Source: Xiphias gladius (Eukaryota; Chordata; Actinopteri; Istiophoriformes; Xiphiidae). Taken from it: a stretch of 64,000 nucleotides of DNA. Both the position numbers and the translations under genes were made by a program. Numbering within the stretch: position 1 is the first letter of the stretch; every line of letters begins with the position of its first letter. The notes under the pieces are model-generated. The model was not told where the DNA came from. It ran no database searches and was given only the letters and a program-made list of their open reading frames with translations. The DNA lies in the NCBI RefSeq assembly GCF_016859285.1, contig NC_053416.1:10042501-10106500 (forward strand). Direction: 5' to 3'. Positions 53,758-64,000 of the stretch are shown piece after piece.

Positions 53758-56700
53758 ATGATTTTTGTTCAAAAACTCCAGAATGTATTTCTCTCTCTGT
53801 TTCTGCTGAGCAGCCCTGACTCTACCGTGGGGCGAGGTAGGTCTAAAGGTTTAAATGGCTATAGCTTGCTAGTTTAACAGAAGACTGAGTCACTGTACTT
53901 TAATGTGATCGGAGGAGGGCGTCACAATGAATTTTACAATAATTCCTAGTTGTGTATACACATGAAGAAGACAAGACAACTGAGAATAATTGACACTCAC
54001 TCTCGGAGATAAAAGCCTATTTCTCGTAAAGTAAGTATTCATTATCTTTATGGTTTTTAGATCCTGCATGGCTGAACCCAAAGTTCTGTGAGAAAGTTAC
54101 TGTGTTGATTGTAAATAATATCTAAAACAATCGCAGTTCACAGTAGTTAAACACTGTATGGCTGCGCAGTTACATATGTGGTCTGTCTAAGCTACAGATG
54201 AAAGGTCAAAAGGTTGAAGCCAATATAAGAGGTTAGCAGAGCTGTAATATGTGTACAGGTGTTGTGTCGCATTACATTCAGTCTCTTCCACAGATGGGAA
54301 TTTTAATTTTTCCTACAGGATGATTTACTGTAACTAACTCAATATATATTTTACCCATGAAATTAAGAAAAATAAAACAATTCAATTTTTTAATTAGTTC
54401 TGGTAGATTTAGTGCTGTAAAAATATGTCAATTTATCCATCAACAGGAAATTAATCAATTTTGAAGATTAATCAACCCTCAGTTATCAAGCACATGTCAA
54501 ACATTTGTTGTTTCATGTTTTTCACTTTGAAAAACTTAAACCGTTTTGATTTAGTTTATGTGGTCAGACAAAATGAACAAGTGGAAGAGTTCATGTTGGG
54601 CTCTGAAAAAAAAGTTACAAACGAGTCGACCATCACTATGAAAGAATATTAGTCGCACTTTTATTAAAGTGGTATCAATTGAGGTTTTCCTAAATGCTGA
54701 CATTACTGACTTTAAACTGCAGGGTTTTCCATCCAGTCATGTCAGATTTGTAAATATAAAAAGTAATATGTCTTCAATCCTATAATATGACCCTGGAGTT
54801 GCATGTCACTTGGCTCAAAGTTATATATCATGTGACGTGAAAGTTACGATTAATAATATCTTTAGTCTAAAAGGTTTTATAAAATAAACAAAAAGCAGCT
54901 TCAGAGAGATAACACTTTTTAGCCCACCTTCTCGCTTCTCCACTGCTCTACAGATCTAGTCCTATTTGCTGCATGTTAATGATGTACTGTATACTGTCTG
55001 TGTCTGTTGTCAGTCCGTTGGTTAAGTCTATGGGGGGAGGTGGTTAACTTCAGCTTCGGGAGCAGCCCCTGGAGATTAAGGCATCACATCTCCATCCCTG
55101 CCCTGCAGGAGTTCACTGTTTGCCTCAATCTGAAATTTGAGGTACAGTTGGCGACGGATCTAAGTTACATTTACTCTTTCAGTAACTTTTAAGGGCAAAT
55201 TCAATGGGACTGCACGGTTCAAGTCTTTATGAATCATATTTTGTATAATGTTTCATCAACCATTTCTAGGTCCAGCCCACCTCACCATGGACCGCCTTCA
55301 TGTACCGTCACCCTGAGGTTCAGTATGCTGAGCTGGGCTTGGGGGGGAAGTGGGGTCACTTAGTGGTCTGGCTGTTAGGGACAGAGTGGACAGCCCCTCA
55401 GATCAACCTTCGCCTGTCACAGTGGTACTCGCTGTGCTTGACCTGGTCACATACTAAAGACAGACCTACCCTATACGTCAACGGCAACCTGGTGGACATG
55501 ACGGCAGGTGGGATTTATCTTGTGGTTTAACATTTCATGGTCTGTTCTGCACAGTTATTTTTGCTTCTCACAATTTTGTGTTTTACATTCTGATGTTGCC
55601 CTGTTACCATCTTTGTGTTATATATCAGATGTCTCAAAGCCTAAGTTACCTCGGGGCCACATTTTATTGTCCCTAAGGATATGGAGGCTGAGTCCTGCTG
55701 CTCAGTGTATATGTATATGTACAGTTGTACAGGCATAGATCATGGTGAGGGTATAAAACCACTTCTAAAGCACAGTGGCCTCATAACTTTGAAATGTAGG
55801 ACGTTTGGAACCAGGATTCTTAAGAGAGTTGGCTGCCCAGCCAAACTGAGAAACCACAATCAAGTAGGGCCTTGGTCAGTGGGTTGACCAACAATACAAC
55901 GGTCACTCTAACAGAGCTTCAGAGGTCCTATGCAGAGATGGGAGGGCTTACTGTAAGGAGGACCATCCCAGCAGCACTCCAACAATCAGGCCATTATGGT
56001 AGACTGGCTAGACGGAGTTGCTCTCATAGCATTGTGTTTAGCTGCAGCGGCAGTGGATCGTTTAGCAGCTAAAGAGCCAGATATATTTCCCTCAGGAGTT
56101 GGTACAGACCAAAAACAGAGCTAAAAGAGAGTCAATATTGGACTCACATTCATCAGGTGGCCAGAAACATGATTTCAAATGAGTGGCTGCCGGATGTGTA
56201 AATACTTAATAGTAAATACTTCACTTATTGCCGTTTCAATAAGGTGAGCATTGGGGAGGACCCTCTCTGAAAGCAGGTTAGATTCACAGTTTAGCAAAAG
56301 GATAGGGACACATGACAAGTTCAAATATAACTCTTGTAACAAGCAAACATTTTCTGAGTTAAATCGTGTCAACATTTCAGAGGCAATTACTTGGCAACGA
56401 TGACTGGAGTGTCTTTTGTTTTTACAATGTGTTCTTTTGGCTCTGGGGCGACTGACAACTAAAAGATTTTGCTGTTTCAGGTTTTGTGATCATTTTAGTT
56501 TGTCTTTGACCCCTCTGTGTGTCACACTACCCGCTTTTCTACTCTCCTAGCTCAAACGGTCGACACTTCTCCCTCCTTTTCCCCCTTGTTCCGCAAACTG
56601 TCTCCCAATGGAACGCTCACTCTGGGTGCGGCACACCTCCTGAACGGCGGGAATATCCAGATAATTCCATTTACCGGCATGTTGGGCAAATTATCTCTTT

Positions 56701-59700
56701 TTCGGATGTGGGGGCGAGAGCGGAGCAAACAGGAAGTTACATCAATGATCTGCACAGAGGGGGACCTGGTGAAGTGGGAGAAGGACAACTGGGTTACTCG
56801 GATGGGTACTCTTCTCCCTGATTACAGCCTGCAGTGTGGTGAGACAATGGAAAACATCCTTTACATTAACTAGAATGTTTTCTCTGATTATTTCTACTGT
56901 AGTCAGATGTTTTATTTAAGATACATTTACCACAGCAACTGCAAGCAATACAAATATCGACAAGTTGAATATTTCTCCCCTCTCTGCCTCCCAATGTGTT
57001 CTTCGGAAAGTCAGTGGCTGATTCACTTCTATGCAGTAAATGGTCTGTCAGTTTCATCAAGCGTTTTACAGCTGTTTCCTACCTTACTGGCCGCCACTGT
57101 GGCTGGCTGCCTTTTGTTCATGTCCTCAGCCCTCAGATTAAATATTGACCACCTGTCTTTTTGTCAGATAAGTAAAAATAGAAGCCATTATATGATCAAT
57201 AACATTAAGCTAAGAAACATTAATCATACAGCCATCAGAGGTTGCTATTTTCTCTTTGCAATGTGTAAATGAATTTTCACCTTAAAACTAAAGGTAACTC
57301 TTAGCCTTTAGTAAACCTAAAATTCTTGGTTTGATTGAAAAATCTTTTTTTATGACTCTGTATAACATTTGCTTAATATTGATTTTTTTTTTAACAAAAT
57401 AACTTTTTTAAAATAATAACTTTATAATAGAAATATATTATTAGAATATTATAAATAATTTTTTTGCTAGGCAACAGACATATCCTGTCTGAGTTACACA
57501 AGTCTTAATTATCAATTAATGTCTGTAAAGAGATTAATATCTACACCTCAATGAAAGAAAGAAAGAAAATCTACTGATTTACAGTTTAAATCAAAATATG
57601 TAAGAAGTACATTGATTTTACTTTACATTAAACATATCAAACTTATTTGAATACAGAGTTCAATATTAGGAAACGTCCTTTACAATAATATTAAAATGTT
57701 AGCAGGATGCATGGAAGAAGTGGTTCAACAACATAACAAAATTTTTCAATTTTGTTTTAAAGCAGAGCCCCAGTTTTGGTTTTTACCACAAAAACTGTTT
57801 CCATTATCATCATATTTAACATTTCCTGTTGCTTTTATATCATAATGCATTTGTTTATAACGAAAGATCATTAAAATAAAGCAGAGACAAAACCGCGAAA
57901 TGTTAAACAGAGTTATGCTAAACTGTACTTGGCAGTTATCAGTATTATTTTTATATGTTGTGTTTCTGGATTTCATTGTACTTGCACTCTTTGTTTGCAT
58001 TTACACATATATTTATAGTGTCTCATATTCTCTTTGGTTGTTTGGCAGAATGGTCCTTTTACGAAGTGAGACTGATATTTGCCATCATCTGTTATGATAG
58101 GAACAACACCGAGCCCTACACGGCCAGAGACATCGCACATCACTGGGTAAAAGAAAGGAACAAACAACTATACTAAATTAAAAACAAGATATTATCAATT
58201 GTAAAAACTGACTGGAAAATGTTCCTTCTATTACACTCTGAATATTGAAACTGTTTCTTCTTCCTGTCACTTTCGGCCGCTAAACAGTAGATTATGAAGT
58301 AAGAGCTAGATAATTTCATAACCTGTTGAAATATCATACACCATACTCTGCAAAATGGGTAAAAAGGAAGAAACCCTGCTAAGATAAAACAAGACTTAAG
58401 TCTACAGCCATGCTTGCTGCTTTGTGAGGCCATACCTCAATGCAGCTCAATGCACAGTGGTGCATTGAGCTAAATTTTAGGTTTTGTTATATGGAAAAAG
58501 TAATAAAACCTAAAAATCGAATAATAAAAAAGGTTTGGATACATGCTAAACCTAGTATATTTGGGCAAACATTAATCGTTTATATATTTATAAATTGTCT
58601 GGACAAATTAAAGGGCTGTTGGGTTGGATTGCAGTATACTGTACAATTTTTCCTCTGACTGTGTTCACCTGCAGTAAAGCTCGGCAGTTGTAACTCCGCT
58701 ATTTGCTGTTTGTTGTTCCTGCAGCTCGAAGAAGTGCTGCCGACCAGCATCTATTTACACAGAGTGTCTGTGTTCGAAATACTCAGGTAGGAGAAGCCTC
58801 CCGCTTACAACACTGGCTGACATGATTCAGAGTATATTTCGTAATTAAATACCAATGAATGTCACTTTGTGTGGCATGAATTAAACTGTAGTTTTATAGT
58901 ATATGACGGAGAGAGGGAAGCGATGGGCCATAAGCGCACTGAGTTTCTCTGATCTCTTGAGCAGACCCAGTACAGAAGACAGCTTTGAAAAAACATCACA
59001 CGAAGACAGGCCGGTAAGCAAGCACCTTATAGCCTGACTGATAATTTAACCAGGCCGATGTATATCGGCCGATATTAGCTTATTGCAGGTAAAGCCGCGT
59101 CACAAGAAAGTGCAGTGCAGATACGTCAGATACGATGCATATCTTGGCCACAATTCTTTAACGATCAAATTTAAGGGATCCCTATCAAAAATGTTTGTTA
59201 TGTGTTTATGTAAAATTAAATGTATTGGCCAATATTGGGTAATGGCCTCAATAACTCCGTATTAGGCTCTAAAGACACACACAGACACATATATAATCTC
59301 TCTCGCTAAAGTTTATGTTTTAATTTTAAAAAGAAAAAGAAAAAAAGAAAATTATTTGAAGCGTTATGCAGTGAAGTAATGTGTCTTTTACTCTTCAGGT
59401 GCGGTGGGCTACCCCTAATATTAACAGGTAAACAAGGTTCAGGTTTACTGTTTACAATTTCTAGCACAAAAGATATCCATTCATCATAAAATATAAGTCT
59501 TCATGCAAAAATATAATCATAATTATGTAAAACATGTTTTTGGGACTTTATTTACATTGACAAAACTTTTTAAGACTTAAATTTCCATGCTGGGGCAAGC
59601 TCTGCTGATCTGAGTGCTGTTTATAATTCACATAGTGTAATTCCACAGGGAGGCAGAGCAAAGTATAATAGAGCAGGGATAATATGAAAAATAAGAAAAT

Positions 59701-62700
59701 TACAACTAGGAATGACAGCAAAGAACGGAAGAAAACCTCATCAGTACTTCACATCATTCTTTTATGGAGGGAAAAATCAGTCTTTGGTTGAAATGCTCAC
59801 CACCCATGTACAAACTAAGGCAGCAAAAAAACAGACTTTGCTTCATTTTAAGGGTCACAAGCCAAAATGCCCAGAAACCACTGCTGAAGAGGACAGTAAA
59901 AACACTCTATGCAACCTTTAACTGTCTATCTCCCCTGTAGGTTTCACTGTCTGGTTCATGCAAATGTTATTCCCAGCTTGGATGTGGCAGCTGTGCAAAA
60001 TGAGATGTACATGGACCTTAGGATCCCCTACCGTTACCCCAGACGTCTGCTACAGCTGCTGGCTGATGAGGACAGCATACACACCACACCTGTTGGTAGG
60101 AAATACATGTGTGTTTGGGTAAACTTTTCAGAAAAACAAATTCACAGTAACCTTTTCTGTTTGTAGAAAGCTTCTCCGCTGCCACCACCAGTCCGCCTGA
60201 CGCGGTGACGGAGCCCTGTCCCGTCACAACCACCAGACTTGCAACCACAGCATCAACTTCTACTTTCTCCCCAACCACCACACTTAAAACCACAACCACC
60301 AGCAACACCGCAAGTGCTTCTACTGGTGCGACGGCAGCCACCACCACCACCACCACCACCACCACAACCACCACAATCACCACCACCACCACAACAAGCC
60401 CTACAAATCTCTCTGGTCAGTCTGCTCATTTCCAGTTGAAGAAACATTTTGTGATAATGCCTTAAGGAAAAAGTTTCTTTAAGTTCCGGATCGTTTGTTT
60501 TGTCTCAATCTTCTCTGCAGAGCTTTATTTTGAGGTTAAGATGAACGTTTCCATAACAGGAGACTGTGACCCAGAGCAGATTCTTTCCACCTGGGTAGGT
60601 CTCACAGAATAGCACAGCTCTGTTATTCTTCAGAGATTTGTCTTAACTCATCTGAAACGTGACCAGTTTAGGAGTCTATAAACAGTATAACATTTAATGC
60701 ATGTTGTTACGCTATAGGAAAAGTTTTATAGTCCACTGTTTCCAAACCTACTTGTATCCCAGGGGGTACTCCTGCAGTTGCCATGGAATATGTGGGAAGC
60801 GTAGCACTAACTCAAATAAAAAAAATCTAATTTTAAAAAAACAAAATGTCCGTGATAATGTTAAGATTTATGCCAAGGAGGAAAATAAACTTCAAAATAG
60901 AATAACAAACTGGTGTGATGCTGATTGATTAATTGGAAATTTACAATAGTAGGCTGCCCGTCAACCTCAGTCAGTTGTTTAGCACATGTTACAACTGAAA
61001 TAGGAGTAAAAAGACAGAAGAAATGTTGTAATAGTTAAAGTGACGGATAAACAGTTGAAATATTTAGCTCAATGTAATGAAAAAATAGCATTTAGCTAAG
61101 GTTCATGAAAAATTGTTAAAATAGTTGTTAAAAGTAATGCATAAACAGTTGAAATAGTTAAGTGATGGATAAATAAACATCCTTCTATTGGTCCGAGTTG
61201 GGGTAGTTCTACAATTTTGACCAAAGCAACCGAAACAGACAATCCAACTGTATGGACAAAGTATTGTAGCCATATCCCAGTCATTTAATCCCTAGTGTTA
61301 CATAACATCCAGTTTCCAGTTCATTCATAGGAACACATTTGGAACAGGGAACATGAAGGTTGGTGCTGAGAAAGGAGTACAGTCCTGGGGATAAGTCGGA
61401 CATACGGGTTGGGAACCACTGTACTAGTCTTTCAATTCTTCAGAACTCGTCATGCTGAGATTTCTCTGACTCTTCACAGCTCAACTCTAGTCTACCTGGT
61501 GACACGATGACAGTGCTTGACCTCCAGCTGCTTCTCCCCAAAGCTCCAAGGTGCAGTCGCTGCCGCACCATCAGTTCCACGCACGTTTTTCCAGGAAATG
61601 TCACGCAATCTGTGGAAAACTTAATGTGACCCTGAATTTTTGATTTCACTTTCAGCTATCATCCTGACCGGCAGTCGAACCTCACTACCACTGATGGAGT
61701 AAGTGAACATGAAAAGCTTCCAGATTCAACGTGACACAAATTAAACTCACGCCTTTCACAACTTCAGAACAATTCTGAGATTATTACCGGCGCTGTGAAA
61801 GCCGGCAGATCCAAGATTTGACCGATTTCGGGTTTTGAAAACTGATGCTTATATTCAAATTTTCAAATTTTATTTATTGTAGCGGAGGAAAAACCTTTAC
61901 ACTGAAACACACAATATGGAAATGTTAAAGTAAGGTGAAATTGTTGTTCATTTACAAATATTTAGCTTTTTAAATTAAATGCATACATTTCAATGGATTA
62001 TTAGCCTGATTTCACATTTGGTGGAACTCAGGCTGGAAATTATTTTTTGGATGGCACTGACTAAAACTGGTTTAATCCTTGTTTGCACAGTATCTGTAAG
62101 CTGTGCCAATATTTTCATTATTTTTTTTTTTCCCCCCAGGTGCACATATACAGAGTGGCAAGGTATGAATCATACAGCTCTGCACGATTTCCTTTAGATC
62201 AAGAACCAATTACAGGTAACGATAAGGGAATAGTGAAATGGATCCAGTATTACAGGCTGCTCAACAGGCGTGTTTACTTTTACAAAATGTATTGTAATTT
62301 TAGATTATAATGTCAGACGTGAAATACATCTACTACTGGAAAACTTCTGCTGCCTGAAAATGTAGTATTTTAAAAAACACTTCAATATACTGCATGTGCT
62401 GTGTATGTCAATCCGTTGTATTAAGAGTAACTCATATTAACTCTATTCATGTCTGCAGAGAGAGCTGTATTTTCCAAGTTCAGGTTATGATGTCGCCGTC
62501 AGACACACAGAAAATAGAGGAGCAGATACGACACCTACTGCTACTGCCTTATAACAACGCCTCCATCACTATAGCGACCGAGGACATAAAGATAAGCCGC
62601 ATCTGTGAGTGAGGTTCAGGTTCAGTCAAAAATTCCATGGTATAACATTTAATTTTTTTTAAATTGAAATTAAGTTACTTTTACTAATTGATTTCAAATT

Positions 62701-62924
62701 GTATAGAAAAAAAATACTTGACAAATTAAAAAAATAAATAAAAGTCAGTCTGTCAGTCTCCTTATCCATCTGTGTTGCTGTTAAACTGCCTTAGTGATAT
62801 TAAAGTGCAATGCGGAAACCTGCCAGACGAGGAAAGGCCTGTTTGAGTGGCCCGCCACTTCAGGAGGAAAAAATGCAACACGGCCGTGCCCGAAAAATCC
62901 TCGCCGATATGCCACTCGACACTG
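53758..62924 (+). CDS. adgrg4: Adhesion G protein-coupled receptor G4, N-terminal part
   Basis: Sixteen coding exons: 53758-53836, 55014-55141, 55270-55507, 56551-56838, 58049-58146, 58725-58786, 58965-59013, 59399-59427, 59941-60095, 60167-60415, 60521-60594, 61480-61550, 61656-61698, 62140-62162, 62459-62604, 62795-62924. They are phase-consistent throughout (about 620 residues) and the gene leaves the window with an open codon. Order: signal peptide (MIFVQKLQNVFLSLFLL); a pentraxin/LNS-like domain over exons 2-4 (SLWGEVVNFSFGSS, WYSLCLTWSHTK, NLVDMTA, LSLFRMWGRERS); a first SEA-like unit (exons 5-9); a Thr-rich linker (exon 10); a second SEA-like unit (exons 11-15); and a HormR-like exon (GLFEWPATSGGKNATRPCP). 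GAIN, GPS and the seven helices lie beyond the right edge. Pentraxin at the N-terminus plus the FHL1 neighbour identify GPR112/ADGRG4. Small exons (23-49 nt) in the middle are least certain. Confidence 0.85.
55735..56025 (+). mobile_element. Tc1-like transposon relic (N-terminal part)
   Basis: In shifting frames the plus strand shows VGCPAKLRNHNQVGPWSV (from about 55830), then TVTLTELQRSYAEMGGLTV and RRTIPAALQQSGHYGRLAR, the helix-turn-helix N-terminal region of Tc1-like transposases with frameshifts. No intact ORF remains. It sits in the adgrg4 intron between exons 3 and 4. Confidence 0.65.
56040..56215 (+). repeat. 'TTTAGCAGCTAAA' dispersed repeat, copy 2
   Basis: Contains TCGTTTAGCAGCTAAAGAGC, ATATATTTCCCTCAGGAGTT and ACAGAGCTAAAAGAGAGTCA, then GATTTCAAATGAGTGGCTG. 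Same order as the copy at 42612-42766. It abuts the Tc1-like relic, so the two insertions are adjacent. Confidence 0.6.
59030..59270. repeat. 'ATCGGCCGATAT' dispersed repeat
   Basis: Starts near CAGGCCGATGTATATCGGCC and ends near GTATTGGCCAATATTGG followed by GGCCTCAATAACTCCGTATT. This resembles a common fish short repeat with palindromic CGGCCGATAT cores. It lies in the adgrg4 intron between exons 7 and 8. Confidence 0.5.
60344..60400 (+). repeat. adgrg4: Coding (ACC)n microsatellite in adgrg4 exon 10
   Basis: An almost pure ACC/ACA run encodes about 19 residues that are nearly all threonine. It is part of the mucin-like linker between the two SEA-like units and is probably length-variable. 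Confidence 0.9.
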
Positions 62925-63539: not shown

Positions 63540-64000
63540 ACTTGCGAAATGCTGCTACATGCCAGAAAGATGACAGGTGGGGTGATGTGATAGTAATGTG
63601 TCAGGTCTTAGGTCTTTCAGCAGGACAACGACCCAAAGCACACAACCAGCAGCACAAAACACTGGTTGAAAATGAAAGGATGGACCGTTTTAAAATGTCC
63701 AGCAATGAGTTCTGACCTAAATCCCATTGCAAACCTTTGGAGAAAGCTGAAATCTGCCATTGCAAAAAGGACTCCTGCAAACTTAAAAGAGCTTGAACGC
63801 ATAGTAGTGGAAGAGTGGCAGAAACTACCGGAAGACCGGTACTAGAAGCTTCTAGACGGCTTCAAGAAACGTTTAGAGGCTGTCATAGTTTCCAAAGGTT
63901 CTGCAACCAAATATAAGTGAAGGGTGCCAATAATTGTGTCTGAGGGTACATTTTGTGTTTGTATTATTTTGCTATAATGCACGATTTGTTTTTTTTAAAT
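63540..64000 (+). mobile_element. Tc1-like transposon relic (C-terminal part), reaching the right edge
   Basis: In two frames the plus strand reads FQQDNDPKHTTS (about 63617), KGWTVLKCP, SDLNPIANLWRKLKSAIAK (about 63711), and LKELERIVVEEWQKLPEDR. These are the second and third acidic regions and C-terminus of a Tc1 transposase, with a frameshift and the usual E of PNPIE changed to A. The tail AAGGGTGCCAATAATTGTGT is typical of the 3' end of this class. The copy is dead. Confidence 0.82.

Follow-up and report, generated by a model that had tools for sequence, protein, structure and literature searches.

The window analysed here is a stretch of 64,000 nucleotides (nt) of the Xiphias gladius genome (NCBI RefSeq assembly GCF_016859285.1, contig NC_053416.1, positions 10,042,501 to 10,106,500 of the forward strand), with positions counted from its first letter. 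It carries a gene that, on its sequence matches, is fish adgrg4 (GPR112). The ectodomain part of this gene contains two blocks of five exons each with identical intron phases, and this paired block is confirmed as real. From sequence comparisons we conclude that the blocks very probably encode two SEA-like modules, which arose by tandem duplication of an ancestral block before the split of the two adgrg4 copies found in this genome. The preliminary description of the window had suggested two such modules made by duplication, with a Thr-rich linker between them. This is still the best-fitting reading, given the similarity of both modules to the SEA domain of ADGRG6 and their counterparts in the second adgrg4 gene. 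The exon structure, the phases, the weak similarity and a paralogue with both blocks are direct observations.

Two exon blocks with the same phases

The blocks lie at 58049-60095 and 60521-62604 and encode module 1 (M1) and module 2 (M2). In each, the five exons have phases 1-0, 0-2, 2-0, 0-2 and 2-1, and a script run on the window verified all of these phases and the exon lengths given earlier (98, 62, 49, 29 and 155 nt; 74, 71, 43, 23 and 146 nt). The Thr-rich linker exon was likewise borne out (60167..60415, plus strand, 249 nt, 1-1; Thr at 39 of 82 residues). All 11 exons (ten block exons and the linker) are preceded by AG and followed by GT, and the spliced chain has no stop in its own frame, while the two alternative frames hold 11 and 22 stops. 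Phase agreement at the six block boundaries has a chance probability of about 0.002-0.003 under assumed phase frequencies. On the MAFFT alignment two of the four internal introns share column and phase, which random placement reaches with probability 0.0005.

At the sequence level M1 and M2 appear weakly similar and collinear. They are 26% identical (MAFFT), and their global alignment score was reached by 1/2000 shuffles with BLOSUM62 and by 0/2000 with either BLOSUM45 or PAM250. Aligned exon to exon, their total score was reached in 2/5000 shuffles and is driven by exons 5-11 and 9-15, the two pairs that are also similar by themselves (5/1000 and 4/1000). The W|L break (W, intron, L) and a last-exon cysteine stand at matching places in both modules. 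The encoded units had been said to align in order; this holds for the outer pairs, while in the shuffle test no similarity was seen for pairs 6-12 (228/1000), 7-13 (941/1000) and 8-14 (149/1000) by themselves. What these three middle pairs have in common is thus their position and phase.

Relation to ADGRG6 and classical SEA domains

The adgrg6 gene of the same genome (contig C4, minus strand) encodes its SEA domain in four exons of 89/53/39/146 nt with phases 1-0, 0-2, 2-2 and 2-1. The inner exons ranked first among splice-signal chains when the outer borders were fixed, and the joined peptide matches PF25307 SEA_Gpr126 (E=1.3e-22) and structure 6v55 (E=4.9e-8). A tryptophan at a phase-0 break is seen in adgrg6 (...W|LNQTF), M2 (...W|LNSSLP) and M1 (...W|LEEVLP). 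Whole-module similarity to the ADGRG6 SEA domain is weak, its score being reached by 3/1000 shuffles for M1, 14/1000 for M2, and 2/1000 and 0/1000 for M1b and M2b, the copies of the two modules on contig C23. With first and last exons only, the counts are 0/1000 (M1) and 2/1000 (M2).

These figures bear on whether M1 is a SEA-like module at all. It could be an unrelated domain whose phases match by chance, leaving M2 as the only genuine SEA domain, as in human ADGRG4. The single SEA domain in the accessible descriptions of the human protein would fit this, as would the lack of likeness between exons 6-8 and 12-14 by themselves, and the phase agreement alone leaves it the chance probability given above. 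Yet M1 and M1b resemble the ADGRG6 SEA domain about as well as M2 and M2b do, the W|L break and the cysteine are in the same places in both modules, and both blocks occur again in the C23 gene. We consider an unrelated M1 improbable.

Classical SEA genes were compared through the 26 matches of PF01390 in the genome. We examined 21 first-half matches, dropped eight by eye as not SEA-like and kept 13. A phase-0 GT at profile position 37-38 is present in 12/13, eight of them with a donor score >3 (one with a stop in the matched stretch); the other four have the dinucleotide alone or lie beyond the part first scanned, and locus L015 has none. A 0-2 second exon is offered in 6/13 scanned loci and is SEA-like in five, two loci offer other phases only, and five offer none. 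At locus L001 (C7:24454182-24457298), presumably an ST14/matriptase-like gene, the SEA exons are 131, 71 and 167 nt long with phases 1-0, 0-2 and 2-1. Both adgrg4 modules have introns where SEA genes carry them, in phase 0 behind helix 1 and in phase 2 behind strand 2. In its outer parts each adgrg4 block thus has the phases seen in some SEA genes, with two tiny loop exons in addition. M1 and M2 aligned to the L001 SEA domain no better than shuffles did (247/1000, 734/1000), so the classical genes lend support through intron position alone.

Genome searches with PF01390 and PF25307 returned no adgrg4 exon among their matches. Since curated SEA profiles miss both modules, we term them SEA-like and not members of the Pfam SEA families. 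A PDB sequence search with M2 gave one cadherin match at chance level (E=0.48). The GS[VI] of the autoproteolysis site G-S-[V/I]-V-V, which many but not all SEA domains possess, is absent from M1 and M2; on this sequence evidence the modules probably do not self-cleave. A furin-like RVAR in M2 was considered as a cleavage site and rejected, as the motif is missing from the module 2 sequence on C23.

A second adgrg4 gene

The gene on contig C23 has a seven-transmembrane (7TM) exon 78% identical to that of the window gene and a pentraxin exon (E=2.3e-15). With the window phases imposed on the search, its module 1 exons are 98/59/55/35/149 nt long and its module 2 exons 86/71/28/23/143 nt, the modules being separated by two short linker exons. 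Kinship judged by eye is evident for the counterparts of exons 5, 6, 9, 11, 12 and 15 and not for the small loop exons. With the outer borders fixed, the chain of C23 module 1 ranked first.

Exon by exon (all window exons on the plus strand), M1 begins with exon 5 (58049..58146, 98 nt, 1-0), which ends in ...HHW| and has a C23 exon of equal length with the same W| end. Exon 6 (58725..58786, 62 nt, 0-2) has a counterpart of 59 nt. The loop exons 7 (58965..59013, 49 nt, 2-0) and 8 (59399..59427, 29 nt, 0-2) have candidates of 55 and 35 nt, and exon 9 (59941..60095, 155 nt, 2-1) has a counterpart of 149 nt (tblastn E=0.011). M2 begins with exon 11 (60521..60594, 74 nt, 1-0), which ends in ...STW| and has a counterpart of 86 nt (tblastn E=0.029). 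Exon 12 (61480..61550, 71 nt, 0-2) has a 71-nt candidate with a weak acceptor. The loop exons 13 (61656..61698, 43 nt, 2-0) and 14 (62140..62162, 23 nt, 0-2) have candidates of 28 and 23 nt, the latter with a weak donor; these are the one weak acceptor and one weak donor of C23 module 2. Exon 15 (62459..62604, 146 nt, 2-1) has a counterpart of 143 nt.

Alignment z-scores are 10.0 for M1-M1b, 10.5 for M2-M2b and 4.9 for M1-M2. Because each module is far closer to its C23 copy than the two modules are to each other, the block pair looks older than the split of the two adgrg4 genes. A tree of first and last exons joins M1 and M1b (97/97), with long branches. Zebrafish have at least two sequences each of GPR64/ADGRG2 and GPR112/ADGRG4 according to PMC8584163, which ties such fish paralogues to the teleost genome duplication. 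The zebrafish genes gpr112a/b (PMC4335454) are likely counterparts of the two adgrg4 genes.

Several results weigh against two SEA-like modules made by duplication. Searched against Pfam, M1 and M2 gave no SEA family up to E=10, and M1b and M2b gave none up to E=1. M2 used as a query on the genome returned its own exons and two weak places (E=0.27, 4.9) and missed the C23 gene, and the module tree lacks an M2+M2b clade (8% of bootstrap trees); these two results lower our confidence slightly. M1-M2 local alignments are not clearly above chance (284/2000, 53/2000 and 67/2000 shuffles with the three matrices), and M1b-M2b similarity is weaker (12/1000). With the outer borders fixed, the C23 module 2 chain ranked fifth and the window M2 chain was not among the six top chains shown. 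The profile-profile comparison with the ADGRG6 SEA domain, proposed in the preliminary description and made with hhalign, gave single-comparison E-values (local/global) of 6.4e-4/0.0028 for M2 and 0.025/0.0052 for M1, with 0.0044/0.0095 for M1-M2; the values of 6.4e-4 (M2) and 0.0052 (M1) favour the relation, but probabilities were only 2-28%. AlphaFold2 run on exon 15, with exon 9 in the alignment, predicted a strand (5-9), a helix (13-27) and a strand (43-47) with low confidence for this half module (mean predicted local distance difference test score 59.5, predicted template modelling score 0.32); the fold that defines the SEA family is ferredoxin-like, beta-alpha-beta-beta-alpha-beta. Finally, when the window gene was scanned for five-exon chains with the block phases, the annotated chains were missing from the eight obtained, and the best of these were mixed.

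Apparent paired blocks in adgrg2 genes

Two further genes have 7TM exons closest to ADGRG2: C17:16292632-16296611 (minus strand; this copy is called C17b) and C5:18953306-18960170. Both have two exon blocks, here A and B, with the adgrg4 phases wherever exons were placed. Block B has exons of 68/41/40/35/128 nt in C17b and 68/44/43/35/128 nt in C5. In block A the 0-2 second exon could not be placed confidently in either gene, nor the 2-0 exon in C5; the remaining exons are 71, 37, 38 and 131 nt in C17b and 74, 38 and 140 nt in C5. A 48-nt 1-1 exon with CxCxAxCN stands upstream of block B in both genes. Cysteine spacing is C-10-C-12-C in both fish A blocks and C-9-C-12-C in both B blocks, and A-B similarity (first and last exon) is reached by at most 1/1000 shuffles in all four pairs. 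The PDB ADGRG2 chain 7xke also has C-10-C-12-C, after a linker similar by eye. A PDB search with a profile of the adgrg2 linker and block B did not find ADGRG2.

Upstream of the C5 blocks, C5:18949843-18950059 holds an exon that resembles a pentraxin exon (E=0.017 against that of adgrg4) and ends in phase 1; a scan before block A in C17b found no pentraxin-like last exon. Pentraxin domains are listed for ADGRD1, ADGRD2, ADGRG4 and ADGRG6 only (PMC10687090).

Similarity of the adgrg2 blocks to M1 and M2 is mixed. Over its whole length block B of C17b gave 348/1000 shuffles against M1 and 110/1000 against M2, and that of C5 gave 21/1000 and 36/1000. On first and last exons, the A blocks are like M2 (0/1000, 7/1000) and unlike M1 (191/1000, 147/1000), while block B of C5 is like both modules (1/1000 each) and that of C17b like neither (112/1000, 113/1000). 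Given these results, the one-to-one equation M1=A, M2=B is not claimed.

The five-phase scan returned two chains in each adgrg2 region and three in C23 (the top one being module 1), and no chain in adgrg6 or in any of 35 overlapping control windows. On shuffled regions chains appeared in 0/300 (C23), 0/300 (C17b) and 4/300 (C5), the best shuffled C5 score being 22.5 versus actual scores of 34.0 and 28.0. Its length limits were chosen after the blocks had been seen, which makes the scan a check and not a blind test. In C5 block A, the least certain block, it picked inner exons other than the listed 38-nt one. The scan also bears on the reading of the small exons as splice-signal noise, skipped in the true gene. 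The exon model is read from genomic DNA alone, five of the ten block exons are 23-62 nt long, and some C23 counterparts have weak splice signals. Against noise stand these scan counts, the open frame over all eleven exons, and the fit of both adgrg4 copies to the same exon number and phases and near lengths. We regard skipped noise exons as highly improbable.

The adgrg2 genes seem to share the paired-block pattern, which may then be wider than first described. This raises the question of whether the doubling, between blocks that are homologous, was a single ADGRG4 event; it could instead predate the ADGRG2/ADGRG4 split or have occurred separately in each. We give such an origin an even chance. 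The two blocks in each of two adgrg2 genes speak for it, and in the tree modules of one gene group together, with weak support (ADGRG2 A+B 81/85, ADGRG4 M1+M2 64/58), which leans to separate events. On the other side, the placed adgrg2 loop exons have the extra phase-0 border that adgrg6 lacks, as would fit one ancestor, and the long branches and open forks of the tree keep it from deciding. A pentraxin followed by two SEA-like modules may be an old ectodomain plan that fish ADGRG4 and ADGRG2 share. Mammals would then have reduced it, ADGRG4 giving up module 1 in favour of the mucin stalk, and ADGRG2 losing the pentraxin and one module; a cryptic SEA remnant, marked by its cysteines, would persist in the N-terminus of ADGRG2. 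The odds of this scheme seem to us balanced, the mammalian losses being drawn from papers and one PDB chain (7xke).

Gene context and proposed arrangement

The last pentraxin-like exon (56551..56838, plus strand, 288 nt, 1-1) is directly upstream of module 1 and matches the ADGRG4 pentraxin structure 8b55 (E=2.9e-5). The 7TM exon is closest to ADGRG4 (E=9.5e-37), followed by ADGRG6 (2.8e-34) and ADGRG2 (1.2e-31), and there is a GPS match (E=2.7e-12). Directly after module 2 comes the first hormone-receptor-motif exon (62795..62924, plus strand, 130 nt, 1-2); together with the following exon it gives a match to HRM (PF02793) at E=3.8e-4 and 21.2 bits, under the 26.2-bit cut-off. Module 2 thus adjoins the motif as SEA does in ADGRG6 and in human ADGRG4 as described. 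The GAIN part was identified by eye in open frames, with a C23 counterpart at E=6.8e-9; a Pfam search of one submitted GAIN-region piece gave no GAIN match. The order of the ectodomain and what follows is pentraxin, SEA-like module 1, Thr-rich linker, SEA-like module 2, hormone-receptor motif, GAIN, 7TM. The hormone-receptor motif, GPS and 7TM were located in the end of the window and in downstream DNA (piece L002, base 1 of which is window 63501). The intron after the first hormone-receptor-motif exon holds a transposase fragment (window 63612-63845; Pfam DDE_3 E=6.8e-9), which we take to be Tc1/mariner-like.

The SEA fold and the function that we infer would be as follows. Each module would be related to the ADGRG6-type SEA domain, though diverged. 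The first strand and helix would run to the phase-0 W|L break and the second strand to the phase-2 intron, the loop would be divided between two tiny exons, and strand, helix and strand would follow in the last exon. A 1-1 block can be duplicated or skipped without a break in frame, and an ancestral block was probably copied in tandem within the gene before the two adgrg4 copies separated. Most likely, in our view, the modules are small folded units at both ends of an O-glycosylated stalk; force pulling on the pentraxin tip would reach, through them, the hormone-receptor/GAIN region with its tethered agonist. Such a role fits the proposal of human ADGRG4 as a shear sensor (PMC10687090).

Comparison with known systems

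For ADGRG6 the SEA domain came to light in a crystal structure (PMC6954182) and for ADGRG4 in a structure prediction (PMC10687090), both in stretches to which sequence comparison had assigned nothing. Exon phase offers an independent and cheap marker for such modules where profiles fail. The titles and abstract openings listed, with subscription papers and preprints outside the search, gave no report of two SEA modules in ADGRG4 or of any in ADGRG2. A duplicated SEA-like block in fish adgrg4, invisible to profiles, stands as our result; it may belong to a plan common to ADGRG2 and ADGRG4. Should fish ADGRG4 and ADGRG2 generally have the pair, both receptors, the former expressed in the gut, could be given redrawn ectodomains. 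Loss of ADGRG2 leads to male infertility (PMC8584163), and the adult zebrafish intestine shows enrichment of both gpr112 genes (PMC4335454), a system where the effect of a stalk-end module could be tested. We see the finding as one of moderate interest, a lead for specialists and no new kind of system.

ADGRG6/GPR126 is alike in placing its SEA domain between pentraxin and hormone-receptor motif, in ending the first exon at a phase-0 W|LN and in a 2-1 last exon. It differs in having a single module, whose loop lies in one exon of 39 nt (2-2) and not in two as in each adgrg4 module. The classical SEA domain of L001 shares the outer parts of the adgrg4 block pattern (1-0, 0-2, 2-1), but is without extra loop exons; M1 and M2 lack the GS[VI] motif. 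For human ADGRG4, a 2026 review (PMC13197933) describes a pentraxin that about 2000 flexible residues separate from SEA-HormR-GAIN. Its SEA domain, a ColabFold prediction (PMC10687090), resembles M2 in following a mucin-like stalk and directly preceding the hormone-receptor motif. In the available text of that paper, no module is described between pentraxin and stalk, and the mucin stretch covers residues 279-2244 versus 82-83 residues in the window linker exon. Going by these papers on the human protein, module 1 may have been lost in mammals. Like M1 and M2, the human domain is given there as being without the usual autoproteolysis site.

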